Source: a virus. Taken from it: a DNA stretch of 48,367 nt. Numbering within the stretch: position 1 is the first letter of the stretch; every line of letters starts with the position of its first letter. A program made the position numbers and the translations under genes. Shown here in pieces: positions 14,809-47,125 of this stretch. The stretch spans positions 1-48,367 of IMG/VR virus record IMGVR_UViG_3300028840_001720; one strand, written 5' to 3'. The notes beneath the pieces are model-generated. The model searched no databases. It was not told the DNA's origin and was given only the letters and a program-made list of their open reading frames with translations.

Positions 14809-15261
14809 TTATTCGACCTCTTCGAATTGAATTTTTACCTTCTGGCCGCGGAAAGTAATAATCGCCCCTCGCATGTCGCAGTTGCATAATATCGCCCTGG
14901 ACAAATCCGCTTCGGATAAATTCGCTTCGTACAAATTCGCCCTGGATAAATTCGCTTCGTACAAATTCGCTTCGTACAAATTCGCCCTGGATAAATTCGC
15001 TTCGGATAAATTCGCCCTGGATAAATCCGCTTCGGATAAATCCACTTCGCACGAATTCGCCCTGGACAAATTCGCTTCGTACAAATTCGCTTCGTACAAA
15101 TTCGCCCTGGATAAATTCGCTTCGGATAAATTCGCCCTGGATAAATCCGCCCTGTACAAATTCGCCCCGGATAAATTCGCCCGTTCGCCGCCCTCTTTCG
15201 ATTCCAGCCATAACATGTGCTTTCTCAGCACCTCTGCCAATTCTTCTGCCGTCATCTTCAT
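14809..15261 (-). CDS. pentapeptide-repeat protein
   Basis: 150 residues from the ATG at 15261, chosen because it follows a G-rich ribosome site and begins a helical cap (KMTAEELAEVLRKHMLWLES). Residues about 28-125 are about 20 uninterrupted A(N/D)L-type pentapeptides (ANLSE, ANLYE, ADLSR), which fold into a right-handed square beta-helix. Members of this fold include DNA mimics such as MfpA and Qnr that bind gyrase; whether this one mimics DNA is not shown. The C-terminus is a short strand cap. The open frame further upstream is low-complexity read-through. Confidence 0.85.
   Translation of the reverse strand: MKMTAEELAEVLRKHMLWLESKEGGERANLSGANLYRADLSRANLSEANLSRANLYEANLYEANLSRANSCEVDLSEADLSRANLSEANLSRANLYEANLYEANLSRANLYEANLSEADLSRAILCNCDMRGAIITFRGQKVKIQFEEVE
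14890..15182 (-). repeat. 15-bp tandem repeats in the pentapeptide gene
   Basis: The pentapeptide region is built from 15-bp units (such as GACAAATTCGCCCTG and GATAAATTCGCTTCG, as read on the plus strand) that repeat with little or no change, including a block of about 100 bases that occurs twice (near 14950-15000 and 15060-15120). The near-identity shows recent expansion by slippage or unequal recombination. Confidence 0.8.
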
Positions 15262-15426
15262 TTTCCCGCCCTCGTTGGTTAGTGGTTGCCGCTCTTTCCC
15301 TGCCAGGAAGGTAAAAGGGTGTTCGGTGTCATTTCTCGCTGTCACCCGGTTTTTGATGTTTTCCCTGGAGCACGAATTAAAACGCTGGTGACGTTGCTTT
15401 TCCACAGAACACGCTTCACGCGTGCG

Positions 15427-15460
15427 CGTGTGCGCGGGTACGCGCGTGCGCCCGCACACG
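15427..15460. repeat. alternating purine-pyrimidine inverted repeat
   Basis: CGTGTGCG (15427-15434) is the reverse complement of CGCACACG (15453-15460). The stretch 15417-15460 is almost entirely alternating GC/GT/AC steps, which favours Z-DNA or a cruciform when negatively supercoiled. It lies between the iterons. Confidence 0.6.
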
Positions 15461-15498
15461 TGAGTATGTTTCGTGAAAAATGGTGTCACCAACGTCAC

Positions 15499-19624: not shown

Positions 19625-19809
19625 TTTTTGATTCGATCACGCATGTATCGCAACAAGCCGATCAAATTCTGACGAAACCGCTGTCTTCCTTCACGCTTTG
19701 AATCTGCTTCGGGGAAATGTGCAATGTCGTTGTTCAAACAATCCCACGCATTTTGATTTTCGACGAGAAAATCAAAGTCAATATCAATCAGGTGTTTATC
19801 GTACAGCAT
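19621..19809 (-). CDS. 62-residue hypothetical protein
   Basis: A small helical protein (FDFLVENQNAWDCLNNDIAHF ... LIGLLRYMRDRIKK) sitting between the RecD-like helicase and the ERCC4 nuclease. It overlaps the helicase end by 14 bases and the nuclease ATG by four. No domain recognised. Confidence 0.65.
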   Translation of the reverse strand: MLYDKHLIDIDFDFLVENQNAWDCLNNDIAHFPEADSKREGRQRFRQNLIGLLRYMRDRIKK

Positions 19810-21118
19810 CTTCCAGCTCCCTCATTTTTTCGACGGCCATTGTCTTGCGTTTCCACAGGTGCGACTTGCGGCACCAGTCGCTTAGCGTCTGAGGTTTCGC
19901 GATGCAAACACAGAGTTGTTTGGCCCGACTGATTCCCGTGAGAACCCAGTGCCGATCGCATAGCCACTTAGCCCCGCTGCTTTCATCGCCGACGACGAAA
20001 ACAACCGGAAATTCTGCCCCTTGCGATTTATGGCAACTTATCGCATACGCCAATTCCCACTTGCCGGTGTCATCATCACCGCTGCTTCGCGGCTTACTCA
20101 CTCGCACAAGTCGATCTGGCGTATCAAGCTGGCAGATCGTGTTGCCGCCGTCAACTTCAATCACACGGGCCTGCTCGCCGTTGGCGACGTACACCCGCCG
20201 CTGATCATTCATCTCTTCACTGGGACAGCCAGGGGCAGCGAGATACCAGCCGTTTTTGCCGCACACGATTTTGTCGCCTTCGCGGTACGGGTTACCCTTC
20301 GCCTGCTTGCCGGTTGGATTGAGATAGCCTTGCAGCATCGGGTTGAGTTTCTTCCGGCTGACTTCTGATTTTTCGTTGAGGGGCACAATCACCTGAGCAT
20401 GCCAGATGGGGTCAACAACATCCTGCGACCAGTCCCATGCCGCTGACGTTGGATCGAGCCAATCGCGTAGCGCCTGCGTCTGTTCTGCCGGATTCTTCCA
20501 CTCGCGATCAACGTGCAGATTCTCGCCTGCCGCCAGGTCGATTTCTGGCGAGTGTTGCCACTTACCTTCTTCCGCTATCAGCTTGCAGGTCTTCACAATC
20601 CGGCCGGCGTTGCGGTGGATTTCCGTGAGGTGTCCACGCGGAACTCCCAACGCAATCATATCGCGGAATGGGGCACCGTGACCGACTGGCGGTAGCTGGT
20701 TCGGGTCGCCGATAAACAGGACATGGCCACCTTTCCGCCGTGCTGCCAGGAGGGAAGCCATCAGCGACGAGTCAATCATGCTCGCCTCGTCCACGAAGAC
20801 AAACTGATGAGGTAGCGGGTTGCTCCGGTTATAACCGAAGTATCCGGCACCCTCCAGGTACGTGTAGGCGAGCAGCCGGTGTATCGTGGTGCAGTCTAGC
20901 CTGATGCCTTGCTCGCCGAGTGCTTCGGTCATTCTCCTGGCAGCCTTACCAGTCGGTGCCGCCCCCGCCATTCCGCTGCTGCCGTTGCGTTGGCGTAGCT
21001 GGCGGATCAGGTGCCCAAGGCAAGTAGTCTTGCCGCTGCCGGGTCCGCCGGTGAGTAGCCCCACCGTGCCGATGGTTGCGGAGTTGAGGGCGTCGAGTTG
21101 GTGGGCGGTTAGTTGCAT
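19796..21118 (-). CDS. RecD2-like SF1B helicase, motor half
   Basis: 440 residues forming a complete SF1B motor: Walker A GGPGSGKT (24-31), motif Ia APTGKAA, Walker B FVDEAS (about 108-113), motif III GDPNQLPPVGHG (137-148), and C-terminal CHKSQGAEFPVV and TGISRAK motifs. It begins exactly at the domain boundary where RecD2 proteins join their N-terminal region to the motor; that N-terminal region is encoded separately at 24144-25178, on the other side of the CRISPR cassette. The ATG is preceded by TTGGGGAC inside the degenerate last CRISPR repeat. It should unwind DNA 5'-3', alone or with the N-terminal half. Confidence 0.9.
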   Translation of the reverse strand: MQLTAHQLDALNSATIGTVGLLTGGPGSGKTTCLGHLIRQLRQRNGSSGMAGAAPTGKAARRMTEALGEQGIRLDCTTIHRLLAYTYLEGAGYFGYNRSNPLPHQFVFVDEASMIDSSLMASLLAARRKGGHVLFIGDPNQLPPVGHGAPFRDMIALGVPRGHLTEIHRNAGRIVKTCKLIAEEGKWQHSPEIDLAAGENLHVDREWKNPAEQTQALRDWLDPTSAAWDWSQDVVDPIWHAQVIVPLNEKSEVSRKKLNPMLQGYLNPTGKQAKGNPYREGDKIVCGKNGWYLAAPGCPSEEMNDQRRVYVANGEQARVIEVDGGNTICQLDTPDRLVRVSKPRSSGDDDTGKWELAYAISCHKSQGAEFPVVFVVGDESSGAKWLCDRHWVLTGISRAKQLCVCIAKPQTLSDWCRKSHLWKRKTMAVEKMRELEDAVR

Positions 21119-21154
21119 CCAAATATGTCCCCAATATCATTCGTTCGCTGCAAC
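21119..21154 (-). repeat. degenerate terminal CRISPR repeat
   Basis: The last repeat keeps the first 19 bases exactly (minus strand GTTGCAGCGAACGAATGAT) and has diverged in the rest, as expected for the trailer-end copy. The altered half supplies GGGGAC as ribosome site for the RecD-like motor gene, whose ATG is at 21116-21118. Confidence 0.9.
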
Positions 21155-22101
21155 CCGGCGACACGTTCGGCGACAGCGTAGCACTCAACACCTCACAATC
21201 CCAAACCAATCATTCGTTCGCTGCAACCGGCAGGTCCTCTGGTACGCGACCTGCCAGGGCGATCTCACAATCCCAAACCAATCATTCGTTCGCTGCAACA
21301 CCGATGAGCCAATGGCCGATGAAGAAACGCTCCTCCTCACAATCCCAAACCAATCATTCGTTCGCTGCAACTAAATCGGCGGCTGTTCCACTGACTGTCG
21401 ACCATCAGACTCACAATCCCAAACCAATCATTCGTTCGCTGCAACGCAGACGCGAAGCCGAACGCGAGCCGGAGTTCCACGCTCACAATCCCAAACCAAT
21501 CATTCGTTCGCTGCAACTTCCCCGATGGCAACCATCAATACTACCGCCAATCCAACTCACAATCCCAAACCAATCATTCGTTCGCTGCAACTACGCGACG
21601 CGTGGGGGCGTCTGGCGGACATACCCCCTCACAATCCCAAACCAATCATTCGTTCGCTGCAACCGAGTCATCGTTCGGGGTTCGATCACCCAAGCGAGCC
21701 TCACAATCCCAAACCAATCATTCGTTCGCTGCAACTTGCGGCCTGCGATAAGGGCTCCATCCTTTAGCCGGCACCTCACAATCCCAAACCAATCATTCGT
21801 TCGCTGCAACCATCACAAAGGTTACTACATCAGCGTACTGCGGAACTCACAATCCCAAACCAATCATTCGTTCGCTGCAACGCGAAGGAAAGCGGCTTGC
21901 AGCGATACATGCCCGCCTCACAATCCCAAACCAATCATTCGTTCGCTGCAACAAGCCACGTCCGCGCGGCGGCGGCGTCCGCCAGTCCCCCTCACAATCC
22001 CAAACCAATCATTCGTTCGCTGCAACCTCCCTAAACGTAGCCGGAACCTCTCCGGAACCTGGCCGCTCACAATCCCAAACCAATCATTCGTTCGCTGCAA
22101 C
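21119..22101 (-). CRISPR. CRISPR array: 13 perfect repeats, 1 degenerate, 13 spacers
   Basis: Thirteen identical 36-bp repeats (first base positions 21192, 21264, 21336, 21410, 21482, 21556, 21628, 21700, 21775, 21846, 21917, 21991, 22066) and one degenerate repeat at the left end enclose 13 unique spacers of 35-39 bp. Read on the minus strand the repeat begins GTTGCAGCGAACG and ends GGGATTGTGAG. The degenerate copy marks the trailer end, so the leader is at the right and transcription is leftward, in line with the cas-like genes. The GTTGCAG opening resembles published Cas12f repeats. No self-matching spacer was noticed by eye. Confidence 0.98.
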
Positions 22102-22383
22102 TCCGTCGCCATAAGTCCTTTCGCCACAACGGGCCAAAGACATACTTGCGAGAGCCCCCTGCCGATTGGCACCTCTTCCAACCTTCCTTGCAAGTCCCAG
22201 CTTCGGAAACTCTTGCTCAGAAGGAAGTTCTGACACGCGAGCGGTTCCCGGCCTCACAAATCTACGGCACTGCTCGCAAATCGGTAACTGATCAGATTTC
22301 ACCATTTGCAAAAATCTTTTGCGCGACAGTCGCACCGACTTGCCACACACTTCGCATGGCAACTCACGACGAATCTTCGCCAT
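22084..22383 (-). CDS. zinc-ribbon protein next to the Cas12-like gene
   Basis: From the ATG at 22383 (GGGAGAT upstream) the first 45 residues carry C10-x2-C13 and C36-x2-C39 in a basic context, a zinc ribbon like the target-nucleic-acid-binding insert of Cas12 and TnpB. It starts 20 bases inside the Cas12-like gene in another frame, exactly where that protein ends and where Cas12f proteins have their zinc ribbon. The remaining 55 residues have no recognisable fold and run through the array leader; the stop codon is inside the first repeat (22084-22086). It may complement the effector in trans or by frameshift. Confidence 0.65.
   Translation of the reverse strand: MAKIRRELPCEVCGKSVRLSRKRFLQMVKSDQLPICEQCRRFVRPGTARVSELPSEQEFPKLGLARKVGRGANRQGALASMSLARCGERTYGDGVAANE
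22102..22380 (-). promoter_or_regulatory. probable CRISPR leader region
   Basis: The segment between the Cas12-like stop and the first perfect repeat should hold the leader, because the array's degenerate end is on the other side. It is also covered by the zinc-ribbon reading frame, so leader and coding sequence overlap if both are real. I see no convincing -35/-10 pair next to the first repeat; crRNA may be transcribed from an upstream operon promoter. Confidence 0.35.
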
Positions 22384-23509
22384 TGTCAATATCTCCCAGT
22401 CGCAATTTGCGAACCTTGACTTCGATTCCACGACGCGCTGCCGCATTTTTCAAATCGTCCAGCCATCGCGTCCAGTTCCAAGTCAAGCCGTTTGCCTCGA
22501 ACCAGCATTTTTCTTTGGTTGGATTGGTGGGTTCCAGGTACTCCAATACGCCACAGCGATGCCGCTCGCATTGCTTAACCACATCTACGATTGCCCGCCG
22601 TCGCACCTCGGTCACAATGTCGGCAAGTTGAAGATTGCGCTTCGATACCGCGATATCTATTTTCTTTCGTCCGTGCCCCGCCCCCATTCGCTGCCGATAT
22701 CTCCAGCCAATCTGTTTTCGCACGCCGACTAAGCGAAGTGTCTGCGAAATCAGGTACCGTCCTGCACCAATTCCCCAGGCACGACTACGCCCCGGAATCT
22801 CTAGCGAAAACGGTCGCTCGATTTCTCCTTTGCCGATCACCGGTGACAATGTAGCTATTCGATCAGTATCAAGTTGTTCCGTTTCAAACGCGACAGGAAT
22901 ATACCAGTACCATTTCCCGCGACGCTCAAGCAATTTCGAGTCGGCTAGTTTGCGTTCACCTCTTGCCAAGTCATGGATAATCCGCTTAATGCCAGTCGGC
23001 ACGCCCTTGAGTGAGATTGTAAAGTCCAGCGAAATCTGCAAACTATTTCGCATGATGTTGCGAACATGGACTTGCACATCGTCCTCAAAGACAATCGTGG
23101 TATGTTTATTTGCGATAGGCACTGACAAATCCGTGTAAAATGCCGGCCGTTCCTCACGCCGCAGAATCGCATCTTTTCGTTTCGGTCTTTTGCCGTTATC
23201 CGCTACACCCTTTCGCCAATCTACCTTAGCAGCCAGGAAAGAATTGACCTGTTGGGCAATGTTGCTTGCAACATCGGTGCCAAGTCGCGGTACAGACGTT
23301 GTAATTGCATGGTAAAGTTTTGTTGATTCCGACAAGGGCTTGCCTTGTCGGTTTAATTTCGCTTGTTTGGCTGATTCCTTCCGGCCGCGAGCCCGCAATA
23401 GCCAGTCTTCGCTGGCTACATTGCGGGCCTCGCGACACAGACGAGCAACTTCTGTCAGCTCTGCCGGCGGATCAGTCAACTTCAATTTCAAAACTGTTAT
23501 TGACTTCAT
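22364..23509 (-). CDS. Cas12f/TnpB-like effector lacking RuvC-I and RuvC-III
   Basis: 381 residues. The C-terminal half lines up with Cas12f and TnpB: a basic GxGHGRKK segment (276-283), the helix-strand unit ending in VLEYLEPTN with the RuvC-II glutamate E323, then a Trp-rich WNWTRWLDDLKNAAARRGIEV segment matching the WgrFlxxLxYKaexxGi motif. The RuvC-I region (about 216-240, SPVIGKGEIERP) has Gly where the catalytic Asp is expected, and the protein ends before the zinc ribbon and RuvC-III Asp. It should bind guide and DNA without cutting. Lengths of known Cas12f are 400-700 residues. ATGA-coupled to the gene upstream. Confidence 0.75.
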   Translation of the reverse strand: MKSITVLKLKLTDPPAELTEVARLCREARNVASEDWLLRARGRKESAKQAKLNRQGKPLSESTKLYHAITTSVPRLGTDVASNIAQQVNSFLAAKVDWRKGVADNGKRPKRKDAILRREERPAFYTDLSVPIANKHTTIVFEDDVQVHVRNIMRNSLQISLDFTISLKGVPTGIKRIIHDLARGERKLADSKLLERRGKWYWYIPVAFETEQLDTDRIATLSPVIGKGEIERPFSLEIPGRSRAWGIGAGRYLISQTLRLVGVRKQIGWRYRQRMGAGHGRKKIDIAVSKRNLQLADIVTEVRRRAIVDVVKQCERHRCGVLEYLEPTNPTKEKCWFEANGLTWNWTRWLDDLKNAAARRGIEVKVRKLRLGDIDNGEDSS

Positions 23510-24012
23510 ACCGGCATCAATTTCCCTCTCCGTTCAAGCTCGACGATTCGTCCCTCCAAAATTCCCCGCTGTCGCTCGCTCTCGTCAAGACGTTCGCGAA
23601 ACATCGCAGCTTGCTCGCGATACTCTTTCACGTTCGCTTCAGCTTGATCCAGTTTCAACTGGAGTTCTTTGGCCAGAGCCTTCCAATTTGTCTTCTGGAT
23701 TTCACCCGCTTCTTTCGTTGGCGTTGCCAGATCGATCATGGCCCATACGTTGTATTGATATTCAGCCCATGTCGATTTTTTCGGATTGGCTCGATAGGCT
23801 CGAACCAGTTCTGATACCGATGGCGAACCGCCAAAATGCGCGAATTCCTCTTCCTGCAAATGATCCATCAATTGTCCTTCTCCTCCGAACTGGTCGACAT
23901 ACTCTTTGTCGGCCAGCAGTTCGTCAACCAGTTGCAGCATGCGAAAGATATTCTCTCGCGATTGTTTGGCGAGCTTCTTTAATTCTGCTCGCTTCTGTCC
24001 ACTCGTACTCAT
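23506..24012 (-). CDS. coiled-coil protein of the CRISPR operon
   Basis: 168 residues from an ATG with an AAAGGAAA ribosome site. Residues about 5-35 and 110-160 are strongly helical (KALAKELQLKLDQAEANVKE, ERLDESERQRGILEGRIVEL), the latter a likely coiled coil; the middle is globular (WAEYQYNVWAMIDLA). Its stop overlaps the ATG of the Cas12-like gene (ATGA), so it belongs to the same operon. No known Cas or anti-CRISPR family is recognised. Possible roles are dimerisation, DNA-binding help or target silencing. Confidence 0.75.
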   Translation of the reverse strand: MSTSGQKRAELKKLAKQSRENIFRMLQLVDELLADKEYVDQFGGEGQLMDHLQEEEFAHFGGSPSVSELVRAYRANPKKSTWAEYQYNVWAMIDLATPTKEAGEIQKTNWKALAKELQLKLDQAEANVKEYREQAAMFRERLDESERQRGILEGRIVELERRGKLMPV

Positions 24013-24059
24013 TTCATTTTCCTTTCAAAAACGAAGACTTAAAACAGGAACCATCAATC

Positions 24060-24143
24060 AGACACAGCCGCTCGGTTTGGGATTTCCGCGTCCTGACGTA
24101 ATCCACATCGCGGATTTACGGAATTTGGCGAGAGGTCCGGCTG
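24060..24143 (-). ncRNA. candidate tracrRNA (hairpin plus anti-repeat)
   Basis: The 131-base gap upstream of the CRISPR operon holds, on the minus strand, first a hairpin (CGTAAATCC at 24112-24120 with GGATTACG at 24097-24104; one bulged A, 7-base loop), then AATCCCAAACC (24074-24084), the exact complement of 11 bases in the 3' half of the repeat. With the next two bases the pairing reaches 13 with one G-U. Cas12f tracrRNAs also have stem-loops 5' of an anti-repeat that pairs with the repeat's 3' half. The promoter is not evident. Confidence 0.45.
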
Positions 24144-25178
24144 TCACATTAAGACCTCCGGCTGCTCGCCATTCGGGCTGTGAGCACCCGTTTGACTACG
24201 GCTGTGCCTGATTGATTGCTCCCACTTCGCCTCTCCCGCCAAACCAAAATCATCATCCAGTTCGTGCCAAGCGACATGAAGATCGGACACCCACGAAGAT
24301 TCAGCGTCAGCTTTCGCTGACTCGGCGTACCATCGTCGCCCATCGCCATCCACCCGCTCGCGGATCATGTCCCGCTCGATTGCATCGGCTATCGCTTCTC
24401 GCACCTGGACAGTAGCTCCCGCGATCTTCGCGTCTAGCTCTTTGCGAATCACGCTTTCGAGAAGCCACGTGCTACCAGAAGAATCGGATTCAAGAGCGTA
24501 CAGGGCACAATGCGTCTGCCGGATCAACGCGCCCATCGGCAAGCCAAGTGACTCGTATAGCCGATCACAGAGCAAAAACCCACAGCCGGCAAACCCGCGA
24601 AGCACATACGGATTGTCGCGGATCACCTGCACTGCACTTTCGCCCCACGCCTCGATGCATTTCTGCGAGGTTGACTTTGGAAAACCGCGATTTGCCAGAA
24701 GCCCCTCAACCTCAATCGTGATTGCTTCCAGTGCTTTTCTGGCAGAGAAAAACGACGATGCAGCCTCAACCGTCGTGACATTGAGGCTGCATCGCTTGGC
24801 CACGCTGGCCGGCTCAAGTCGCAATTTCTCTAGTGCCAGCTCTCCAAATTCTGCGACGATCTTGATTGCTGCTTGCGGACCGATGCCGTTTGCCTTTTGT
24901 AAATATCGCTGGATGGCTTGCAGGTCGGTCGGCTCAACCGGAGTAAACGAAGAAAATTGAAACTGCCGACCGAACCTATCGTGTGTTTGCACCCGCCCCA
25001 GAAACCGATACTTCTCACCCATGCACAGCGAGCCGGCCTTGGCATTTCCTACTACCGTTTGCCCGTCTCGCATTTTGCCAACCACCCAGCGATCAGCCGA
25101 ATCGTCTTCGCCGATCGCCCGGTGTTCGTGGGAGAAGATCCCGATTAGTTCTTCGGTTTTTGGGGTTACGACTGGCAC
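24144..25178 (-). CDS. RecD2-like helicase, N-terminal half
   Basis: 344 residues matching the N-terminal part of RecD2 proteins: an OB-like domain (KYRFLGRVQTHDRFGRQFQFSSF), helix-hairpin-helix modules (KANGIGPQAAIKIVAEFG; NPYVLRGFAGCGFLLCDRL), and a helical end. It has no Walker motifs; these are in the separate motor gene at 19796-21118. It starts with GTG behind GAGGGG and ends with a stop about 130 bases before the CRISPR operon. The two halves together total 784 residues, near the usual RecD2 size. They probably associate in the cell. Confidence 0.82.
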   Translation of the reverse strand: MPVVTPKTEELIGIFSHEHRAIGEDDSADRWVVGKMRDGQTVVGNAKAGSLCMGEKYRFLGRVQTHDRFGRQFQFSSFTPVEPTDLQAIQRYLQKANGIGPQAAIKIVAEFGELALEKLRLEPASVAKRCSLNVTTVEAASSFFSARKALEAITIEVEGLLANRGFPKSTSQKCIEAWGESAVQVIRDNPYVLRGFAGCGFLLCDRLYESLGLPMGALIRQTHCALYALESDSSGSTWLLESVIRKELDAKIAGATVQVREAIADAIERDMIRERVDGDGRRWYAESAKADAESSWVSDLHVAWHELDDDFGLAGEAKWEQSIRHSRSQTGAHSPNGEQPEVLM

Positions 25179-44153: not shown

Positions 44154-46316
44154 TTACCATCGGCCTCTTGTGAATTGTCCGGTTGTCGGCACCGCTGCAA
44201 CTGGGGCAGGCGTCGATCTTCGCGCCTTGGCGGTCGGTGCCACCTTTTCTATCGTGCGGGTGATCGGCTCCAGACGCTCAATACCTCGCATAATGCGGCC
44301 AAGGATCGTCAACGCCGTGCTGTCCAAATAGTGATTCTGTTTTCGCACCTTCCACCAGCCGAGCCGGTTTTTCTTCCAGCCTTTTTCGAAGCGTTCCTCC
44401 CAGATTTCCGCCGTCACCTGAAACGCAAAGGTCTTGTGCGGCAATCGCGTGTCCGTCTCGAACACCCGAAGCGAGCCAGTGTAGCCCGTTTCTGTGAGAA
44501 ACCCTGAATGCACTTGCAGCTTAAATGTGTCAGGGTCAAAAAGAATTACGCCTTCCTTACTGGCGTGCCATCCAGGTCCACCAATGTCCGCCCATTGCGG
44601 CCGGCGGTATGGGCTCCAACCTTTCGTTGGAATAAATCGGAGCGTACCGACTTCCCGGCAGAACTTCCGCACGGGCTGCTCTTTCCAAGGCTCCTCTTTC
44701 CACCCCTCGTCGATCGCGATCAAATCGACGTGATAGGGCAGTTTGTCGATCACCTCTGTTTTCCAATCGTGCAAAGCGTTGTAGATGCACAGATCCATTG
44801 TTTCGATAGGCAAGCCGGCAGAATGGAAATCGAAAAAATCGTAGTCCACGATCGAGCCGGCAGCCTCCGAGTTCCACGCGGTAGTGGTGTACTCCAGACC
44901 GGCCTTGCGAATGTCGACGCCGCAGACGATTCCCGTCGCGTCGTCTGGGATCTCCTGGCGTTTCAGCCCGGACCCACACTGATACATGATATGATCTGGC
45001 GTCAAAATCAACGGCTGCTCGGCATCTGCCGGCGGGTCGTTTTGGTGTTCCGTAAGAAACGAATCCATGCCGTTGTCGGCGATGTAGTCGTAGCATTTCT
45101 GCAGCGCCGATAAGTGCTCTGGCTGCTTGTCGTCGAGTAAATCGGTGTTGTAGTCGTGCCCCGAAGACATCTCGCAGCCAGCGTGCATTTTGTCGAATCG
45201 TTCCCGCAGAAAATCACGGGCTTCGCGGGCGTGCTTGTCATGCGGCTGTCGGTTGCGGCGTAGCTCAATATATGTCTCCCACAAATCGAGCCGATCGGGC
45301 CATTTGATGATTCGCGGGACTCGCTGACCGTCCCAGGATGGCTTCTCGTCCCGGTCGGTGTACTGATAGGCCGCTGAACGCCGGCTAGTGATCGTACAGA
45401 TAAACACCTTGCCAAGCCGCTTGTTCGGTCCGCCCAGCCCCGCGACAGTCTTGTCAATGCAATCCTCGATCTTTCCGGCTATTAGCCCTTGTTCGGCTGC
45501 GAGGCTGTCTCGGCTGTCCAGGTCGTCGAGCATAACGAAGTCCGGCCGGCGGTCGTAGATATTGAGCCCCTGAAGCGAATCAGACGAGAACCCCAAGCAC
45601 ATCAACACCGGCCCCAACTCGGTTTCGTTTTTGGGCAATCCGTACTTGACGGTCGCGTACTTCCCCCGCCCGTCCGGCAGACTGGGCAGCACGACGTGTT
45701 GCGGTCCCCACTCGACCCGGACGGGCAACCCGCCCCATGTCACGCTGCGAGCCCTCGACGGTGCCGGCGCGATGTAGCGGCAGATCGATGTCTCAAACGG
45801 AAAATCCTCGTGCAGCTTTTTGTTGGTGATAGTCCGCAGCTTTGCCTTAATGTCACGCAAGATCTGTTCGCCCTTGGTTGTCGTGGCTGCGAGAATCAGC
45901 GGAAACTTCAGTTGCCGATAGAGAGCGTACTTGAGTTGGAGGTACTTGAGGATGGTAGACTTCCCGCTGCCTCGCGGCATCGCCATTGCCTTCGATGTGC
46001 CGTATCGAATCGCCCGGCCGCAGTCCTCGATGAATTGCTTTTGAGCGCTGGTGAATGGAGCATAGAACACATCGGGGAAATACGTGCGCAGGAACTTTTG
46101 GTCGTCCTTCTCGCAAGCTCGACGGCGTCGCGGATTCTGAACGATGCGGGCGGGAATGTCGCGACCCGACGACCGCATCTCCCGCTTGCGAATCGCGTCG
46201 GCTGCCCGCACTTTGTCGGCCTGCTCCGCTGGCATCCCCTTGAGCGCAGCCTTCAGTTTTCGCCGTTGCTCCTGCAACTTGCGGTCTGCGGCTCGTAGTT
46301 CTTCGATGGTTGGCAT
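44154..46316 (-). CDS. large terminase subunit
   Basis: 720 residues from the ATG at 46316, which overlaps the previous stop as TAATG; the longer frame is not needed. The ATPase has a Walker A (AMPRGSGKSTI, about residues 111-121) and Walker B (DFVMLDDLDS) with a downstream catalytic Asp/Glu region. The nuclease-type VCGVDIRKAGLEYTTT and AIDEGWKEE blocks follow. It packages DNA into proheads. A Lys/Arg-rich N-terminus (KAALKGMPAEQADKVRAAD) may bind the small subunit. Confidence 0.9.
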   Translation of the reverse strand: MPTIEELRAADRKLQEQRRKLKAALKGMPAEQADKVRAADAIRKREMRSSGRDIPARIVQNPRRRRACEKDDQKFLRTYFPDVFYAPFTSAQKQFIEDCGRAIRYGTSKAMAMPRGSGKSTILKYLQLKYALYRQLKFPLILAATTTKGEQILRDIKAKLRTITNKKLHEDFPFETSICRYIAPAPSRARSVTWGGLPVRVEWGPQHVVLPSLPDGRGKYATVKYGLPKNETELGPVLMCLGFSSDSLQGLNIYDRRPDFVMLDDLDSRDSLAAEQGLIAGKIEDCIDKTVAGLGGPNKRLGKVFICTITSRRSAAYQYTDRDEKPSWDGQRVPRIIKWPDRLDLWETYIELRRNRQPHDKHAREARDFLRERFDKMHAGCEMSSGHDYNTDLLDDKQPEHLSALQKCYDYIADNGMDSFLTEHQNDPPADAEQPLILTPDHIMYQCGSGLKRQEIPDDATGIVCGVDIRKAGLEYTTTAWNSEAAGSIVDYDFFDFHSAGLPIETMDLCIYNALHDWKTEVIDKLPYHVDLIAIDEGWKEEPWKEQPVRKFCREVGTLRFIPTKGWSPYRRPQWADIGGPGWHASKEGVILFDPDTFKLQVHSGFLTETGYTGSLRVFETDTRLPHKTFAFQVTAEIWEERFEKGWKKNRLGWWKVRKQNHYLDSTALTILGRIMRGIERLEPITRTIEKVAPTAKARRSTPAPVAAVPTTGQFTRGRW

Positions 46317-47125
46317 TAGTGATGTTGCTGCACTCGCAACGGGTTGTGATACCCCGCAGGCAGATACCGCTGCAAGTCCTTTTTGATGTAGTGTCGGACG
46401 CCAAGCTGTTGACACAGCTCGACGATTTCATGCGTGTAGCTTTCCCAATCAGTGGATTGTGTCATCGGCAAGTAGTTCGCCCGTCCGATTTTGTAAAGAT
46501 CGACGAACCGAAATGTCCGCTGGATGATTTCGAGACTGCTATCTGTGTCTAGTGTTGGCTCAAGTGACACCCAGGTGAAAATGCCCGCCTGGTGAAATGC
46601 CCGTAGCGTACTGATGCGATCACTTGGCAATGCGGCGTTGGGTTCCCATCGGTTACTGAATTCGACATCAAGGCTAGTCAGCGTCGAGGCGAACGCGTCA
46701 CGACCAGGACGGAATAGGTCGATATCCCGCAGCGCCCGCGAGCCGCCCTTGGTCAGCGTGCAGACCGCAAGCCCGTGCCCCTGCAAAATGCGGATTGTTT
46801 CCGATGTCAATGCGGTGTCGCCCGGATGATAGGGGTCGGTCGTGAAGCTGAGCATTACTTGCTCGGTGATCCCAGCCACCCGATACTTCGCCGCATCCTT
46901 CTTTAGCTTCGCCAGAAATCCCGGCCGCTCTATGGCTCCAGCGTCGAATTCCGACCGCGACATGCGGAGCACTTTCGGAACATAGCAGTACTTGCAGCCG
47001 TGTCCGCAGCCCCGATATGGATTCGTCGCCAGCGGTGCATACTCGCCAGCTTGACCACGTGGGGCGTAGATCATCGAACAGTTCTTGACGGATACGCCGT
47101 CCGGGTTCAGAATGACGTTAGACAT
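46316..47125 (-). CDS. radical SAM protein, SPL-like
   Basis: 269 residues. The iron-sulfur motif CGHGCKYCYVP (C40, C44, C47) binds a 4Fe-4S cluster and SAM. LSFTTDPYHPGD and GSRALRDIDLF follow the layout of spore photoproduct lyase-like and other small radical-SAM enzymes. In a phage this could repair or modify bases; substrate unknown. It lies between terminase and a methyltransferase. Confidence 0.82.
   Translation of the reverse strand: MSNVILNPDGVSVKNCSMIYAPRGQAGEYAPLATNPYRGCGHGCKYCYVPKVLRMSRSEFDAGAIERPGFLAKLKKDAAKYRVAGITEQVMLSFTTDPYHPGDTALTSETIRILQGHGLAVCTLTKGGSRALRDIDLFRPGRDAFASTLTSLDVEFSNRWEPNAALPSDRISTLRAFHQAGIFTWVSLEPTLDTDSSLEIIQRTFRFVDLYKIGRANYLPMTQSTDWESYTHEIVELCQQLGVRHYIKKDLQRYLPAGYHNPLRVQQHH

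Follow-up and report, generated by a model that had tools for sequence, protein, structure and literature searches.

A phage-borne CRISPR locus with a short, nuclease-dead-looking Cas12f-like effector and a spacer that resembles a terminase gene

The stretch analysed here, called the window below, is a whole 48,367-base virus contig (record IMGVR_UViG_3300028840_001720), and our subject is a compact locus of clustered regularly interspaced short palindromic repeats (CRISPR) that spans window positions 21119-24240 on the minus strand. It comprises a CRISPR array, a gene for a Cas12f-like effector, a small zinc-ribbon open reading frame (ORF), a coiled-coil ORF and a putative trans-activating CRISPR RNA (tracrRNA). 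An earlier note on this DNA, made from its letters, had described such a set of elements as a phage-borne system with a miniature Cas12 effector that looked nuclease-dead. The phage origin is borne out by the terminase, portal, protease, major head and tape-measure genes that are present in the window, together with recombination and replication genes.

The array (21119-22101, minus strand) has 13 spacers. Its perfect repeats of 36 nucleotides (nt) number 13, as had been counted before, and to these we add a fourteenth, half-degenerate terminal copy at the gene-distal end (21119-21154), in which only the first 19 nt are kept. In the leftward sense the repeats read GTTGCAGCGAACGAATGATTGGTTTGGGATTGTGAG. 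The spacers are all different and are 35-39 nt long, hence the arrangement is that by which a CRISPR array is defined, namely direct repeats that are nearly identical and are separated by unique spacers of about the same length. Both the degenerate repeat at the gene-distal end and the beginning of the repeats with GTTGC in the leftward sense agree with leftward transcription of the array. Upstream of it the three ORFs lie where the earlier note had placed them, all leftward and with overlapping ends. When proteins of the window, a set that took in only part of the small ORFs, were compared with Pfam, PHROGs, NCBIfam and PADLOC, none matched Cas1, Cas2 or Cas4, and so the reported absence of these genes stands within that scope. 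The note had also said what would speak against it, namely an effector with no match to Cas12, or relatives with an intact cas operon at the same place; a Cas12 match exists, and we found no relative in which this array is flanked by an intact cas operon. A search of IMG/VR with the repeat sequence returned only the same contig.

By its sequence matches, the effector (381 amino acids; 22364-23509, minus strand) is a divergent Cas12f that groups with subtype V-F. It matches only two PADLOC models, Cas12u3 (1e-10) and Cas12f (8e-10). Its Cas12f profile score is 14.8 bits, against at most 1.4 for 500 shuffled sequences. In BLASTP the Cas12f of Alicyclobacillus phage MMB025 is matched at 8e-7, and the best phmmer match in the PDB is again a Cas12f (9nzq), albeit a weak one (E 0.022). 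For both AlphaFold2 models of the protein the best five Foldseek matches are all Cas12f, the first being dCas12f 9n9c (3.6e-8 for the model made with one homologue, 2.9e-4 for the single-sequence model). Since the models are poor (predicted local distance difference test 38) and their template modelling scores low (0.16-0.28), we take these fold matches as support for membership of the Cas12f family only and not as a structure. PADLOC, BLASTP and Foldseek thus all agree with V-F, and the effector type originally proposed, Cas12f/TnpB, is supported. The accompanying statement that the gene content is unlike any known subtype was too strong, since the effector sits in V-F and the PDB already holds a nuclease-dead Cas12f of similar length, the same 9n9c.

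The catalytic site was compared under four alignment settings, with the same result. The RuvC-I aspartate, which in relatives stands in an ILGVDMG-like motif, is replaced by V or S in TLSPVIGKG; the RuvC-II glutamate is replaced by L in VLEYLEP; and the chain terminates ahead of the zinc ribbon and RuvC-III. GHGRKK, a conserved but non-catalytic motif, is retained. A V-F nuclease has an intact RuvC D-E-D triad and a zinc ribbon within the effector, and because the two acids are changed and both RuvC-III and the zinc ribbon are missing from the chain, we describe the locus as V-F-like and nuclease-dead and not as a V-F nuclease. The nuclease-dead look was therefore a correct impression. According to the 2025 classification, RuvC has been inactivated repeatedly within type V (PMC12669027).

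The zinc-ribbon ORF (22084-22383, minus strand) is listed with 120 amino acids, but its likely start is the ATG at 22383, which has a Shine-Dalgarno sequence of its own (GGGAG) and gives 99. It contains CxxC-x22-CxxC, overlaps the 3' end of the effector gene in a different frame, and ends inside repeat 1. There is no aspartate at the RuvC-III place (CEQCRRFVRPGTAR), and the product has no profile match, that to the TNB domain of Cas12f included. From its position and the spacing of its CxxC pairs we infer that it could be a piece split off from the effector; given the missing TNB match and the missing aspartate, we say no more than that, and the split effector of the earlier note is not substantiated. 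A coiled-coil partner of the effector had been suggested as well. The corresponding ORF (168 amino acids; 23506-24012, minus strand), with a helical N-terminal part, a C-terminal coiled coil and a stop that overlaps the effector start, was searched for homologues and none were found, so that this suggestion likewise has no support.

The putative tracrRNA lies on the minus strand at 24030-24240. Its predicted fold has a minimum free energy of -98.1 kcal/mol (z = -6.4), and consists of a long closing stem with inverted arms at 24047-24070 and 24199-24222, internal hairpins and an unpaired stretch. Within this unpaired stretch, inside the multiloop, sits an 11-nt anti-repeat, AATCCCAAACC (24074-24084, minus strand), which is a perfect complement of repeat nt 21-31. 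A match of this length within the unpaired stretch was attained by 17 of 20000 shuffled repeats. The 48 kb contain two further 11-nt matches to the repeat, both on the opposite strand, and for this reason the match by itself is not significant over the whole window; what counts is its proximity to the operon and its place in an unpaired loop. Rfam gave no match. The tracrRNA with an anti-repeat that is expected of V-F is represented here by the predicted structure and these 11 nt. The candidate of the earlier note holds good as a structure, but it reaches past the end given for it and covers about 24030-24240.

The only spacer for which a likely target can be named is spacer 5 (21736-21774, minus strand). 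It resembles the phage's own gene for the terminase large subunit (44154-46415), with the homologous site at 44595-44633 on the minus strand. The match is 30 of 39 nt, and the best of 1000 shuffles reached 26. Read in the terminase frame, the spacer encodes VPAKGWSPYRRPQ and the phage's own peptide is IPTKGWSPYRRPQ; 11 of 13 amino acids agree, and the peptide score is 72 against a null maximum of 42. Five of the nine differing nucleotides are synonymous and the other four fall within two changed codons. A peptide so nearly identical makes it most likely, on sequence grounds, that spacer 5 is derived from, and directed at, the counterpart of this terminase gene in a related phage. The mismatches to the phage's own gene are concentrated near the protospacer adjacent motif (PAM), five of the first nine nt being different, and the 5' flank of this site, the only one available, is CGATTT, which is compatible with a T-rich PAM. 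If the array is read leftward, the CRISPR RNA (crRNA) has the sense of the terminase mRNA; it could then base-pair with template DNA but would not be complementary to that mRNA. The earlier note had proposed rival phages, plasmids or host genes as targets, and of these the rival phage is supported for one spacer, whereas plasmids and host genes have no spacer match to support them.

In our opinion the locus is best explained as a phage-borne, adaptation-less, V-F-like CRISPR system that silences competing phages by programmed DNA binding, that is, by an action like that of Cas12m performed with a V-F effector; we would put the probability of this at roughly two in three. Silencing of rivals by binding and not by cutting seems probable because the residues for cutting are lost and because one guide resembles a related phage's packaging gene. 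The proposed course of events is as follows. The tracrRNA and the crRNA would pair via the 11-nt anti-repeat, and the RNA pair would load the dead Cas12f, where the zinc-ribbon protein may take the place of the missing TNB domain. In a competing phage the loaded complex would bind a target with a T-rich PAM and keep genes such as terminase from being transcribed, and a co-infecting or superinfecting relative would then not be packaged. The phage's own terminase would be spared, since the match has diverged at its seed end. That the complex binds DNA and blocks transcription is most likely by analogy with Cas12m2 (PMC10442227) and TldR (PMC13418256), both of which silence without cutting. Jumbo phages are known to have CRISPR systems without adaptation genes or nuclease, and viral mini-arrays can be directed at related viruses (both reviewed in PMC11656645). 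In a landfill survey, phages were reported to encode relatives of Cas12f2, f3 and m, and in many of these the RuvC motifs are weak or missing (PMC12607003). If the interpretation is true, the locus is a weapon with which phages compete by natural CRISPR interference, with a very small DNA-binding effector (381 amino acids) that does without the zinc-ribbon/RuvC-III part, and it makes it testable whether a virus can exclude its rivals without cutting them. A more elaborate version, in which a dead Cas12f lobe, a zinc-ribbon subunit translated on its own and a coiled-coil subunit would make up a physically split V-F variant, a multi-protein RNA-guided roadblock passed from phage to phage as a cassette for silencing other phages, is in our view a tentative proposal.

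Several points weigh against silencing of competing phages. Just one of the 13 spacers was matched, the other 12 having no match in this genome, and comparison of the spacers with INPHARED phages and PLSDB plasmids gave matches at chance level only. The actual target genome of spacer 5 was not found in IMG/VR, among INPHARED phages or among PLSDB plasmids, and a search for the target phage with degenerate terminase patterns returned only the same phage population, one match being the spacer itself. Missing RuvC acids alone are no proof of missing cleavage. Close relatives were not found either: when IMG/VR and GTDB contigs were scanned with single proteins and with alignments, nothing came up beyond the same phage population and one distant Cas12f. 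Hence the zinc-ribbon and coiled-coil genes and the RNA are judged from one phage population, and the tracrRNA-like role stays putative.

It is conceivable that the RNA-guided complex controls transcription of host genes or of the phage's own genes, by repression as with TldR or by activation as with dCas12f, and does not serve in phage competition. Indeed the best fold match, dCas12f 9n9c, likewise ends ahead of the zinc ribbon, and phage TldR proteins repress host flagellin (PMC13418256). However, what is found here is a real array of 13 different spacers instead of one fixed guide, the sole identified target lies in the coding sequence of a phage structural gene, and the three-gene operon contains no sigma factor or regulator domain; we therefore regard such a regulator as rather unlikely. 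The same array argues against a decoy or anti-CRISPR, in which the dead effector and tracrRNA would sequester the crRNAs of the host. A phage-encoded, RuvC-dead Cas9 has been proposed to do this (PMC11656645), and a nuclease-dead effector with a tracrRNA-like RNA of its own in a phage does fit the idea, but a decoy would need no 13-spacer array with a phage-derived spacer, and we give the idea little credence.

Nor do we favour the view that the locus was captured and is now decaying without function. The loss of all catalytic acids, the absence of adaptation genes and an effector shorter than the Cas12f nucleases are what one would expect of decay, but the 13 repeats are identical throughout, the three overlapping ORFs are intact and have starts and ribosome sites, the GHGRKK motif is retained, the RNA fold is strong and a second contig has an identical copy, so that decay appears improbable to us. 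As for an effector that still cuts, either through displaced acids or with the zinc-ribbon protein completing the RuvC site in trans, one may point to E326 in EYLEP, an acid one residue past the RuvC-II position, and to the zinc-ribbon ORF directly after the effector. Yet no alignment puts an acid at or beside the RuvC-I position, and the zinc-ribbon ORF lacks both the RuvC-III aspartate (CEQCRRFVRPGTAR) and a profile match; of all the explanations considered we find this one hardly credible.

The cassette sits between two halves of a RecD2 helicase. The N-terminal half is encoded at 24144-25178 (minus strand; profile 27-308 of 713), with its last ~30 codons within the tracrRNA region, and the C-terminal (motor) half at 19796-21118 (minus strand; profile 315-709 of 713), with an ATG directly after the terminal repeat. 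The G+C content at third codon positions (GC3) is 0.50-0.515 for the three cassette genes versus 0.59 and 0.66 for the RecD2 halves. Position and lower GC3 are as expected of an acquired insert, and they suggest that the cassette was inserted into or between parts of recD2; we infer that the insertion itself may have split the helicase. No close relative with an uninterrupted recD2 was found, and no convincing target-site duplication at the cassette ends. A role in transposition was considered and rejected: none of the neighbours matches a transposase, whereas in CRISPR-associated transposons (V-K, Mu V-F) one of Tn7 or Mu type stands beside the effector.

An assembly artefact is unlikely, because a second contig, IMGVR_UViG_3300018080_000343, has the same locus with an identical cassette and yet differs elsewhere, being 75 nt longer inside a RecT-like gene (window 26844). 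INPHARED contains no close phage, the terminase matches having ~25% identity. Elsewhere in the window, 14809-15498 encodes a pentapeptide-repeat protein in a stretch of 15-nt tandem repeats, its fold being one that can act as a DNA mimic, and near one contig end (1069-5445) there is a glycosyltransferase-like gene cluster with a sulfotransferase-like gene.

In bacterial chromosomes dCas12f acts together with a sigma factor. The deposited protein (PDB 9n9c/9n9m, 365 amino acids, 'Nuclease-deactivated Cas12f') shares the Cas12f fold with our effector, and the chain of 9n9c, too, breaks off short of the zinc ribbon/RuvC-III region, covering profile 11-370 of 446. In contrast to dCas12f, the present locus has a 13-spacer array and a phage location, and no sigma domain is found in the operon ORFs. 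Cas12m (V-M) is likewise a miniature nuclease-dead Cas12 with a CRISPR array; it silences mobile elements by binding and occurs on plasmids and in some prophages (PMC10442227, PMC11656645). However, Cas12m2, with 596 amino acids, carries an HDD triad and a REC2 insertion and uses a single crRNA, whereas here there are 381 amino acids, a Cas12f profile and a tracrRNA-like RNA. A protein of this length for which PADLOC returned no models other than Cas12u3 and Cas12f does not belong to the V-M sequence family, whose members have ~600 amino acids and a REC2 insertion. TldR is phage-encoded, RuvC-dead and capable of RNA-guided repression (PMC13418256), which in our case would be expected by analogy, but it has a guide RNA cassette beside its gene and no CRISPR array.

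Two phages come close in layout. Virus Rctr197k (KX853510) has a Cas12f-like protein in which the RuvC-I aspartate is replaced (by His), a coiled-coil gene just upstream of it and 36-nt GTTGC... repeats just downstream. Its effector, however, retains the RuvC-II glutamate and the zinc ribbon in one chain and is only ~24% identical to the 381-residue protein, and the coiled-coil proteins of the two loci have no detectable homology. That Rctr197k protein (KX853510.1, 302-2865) is annotated as transposase-like and possibly represents another phage-borne system that only binds. Alicyclobacillus phage MMB025 also has a Cas12f adjoining a CRISPR array, but with all RuvC acids intact in a single chain annotated as a transposase; in both MMB025 and IMGVR_UViG_2558860250_000001, two CRISPR-like groups of repeats lie next to a phage-borne Cas12f whose RuvC motifs are intact. 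Outside phages, a Cas12f-family protein of the Ruminococcus albus 7 plasmid pRUMAL01 (943-2304, WP_013483559.1) has Asn in place of the RuvC-I Asp (GVNLG) and may be nuclease-dead. Earlier examples of nuclease-dead Cas12 proteins are Cas12m on plasmids, the phage repressors of the TldR kind, whose guide is fixed, and dCas12f. The likeness of spacer 5 to terminase and the position of the cassette, with its lower GC3, between RecD2 halves are new in this analysis, and what is unusual about the locus is that a phage contig of ordinary size combines a dead Cas12f that is short at its C-terminus with a tracrRNA-like RNA, a long array and a spacer resembling terminase.

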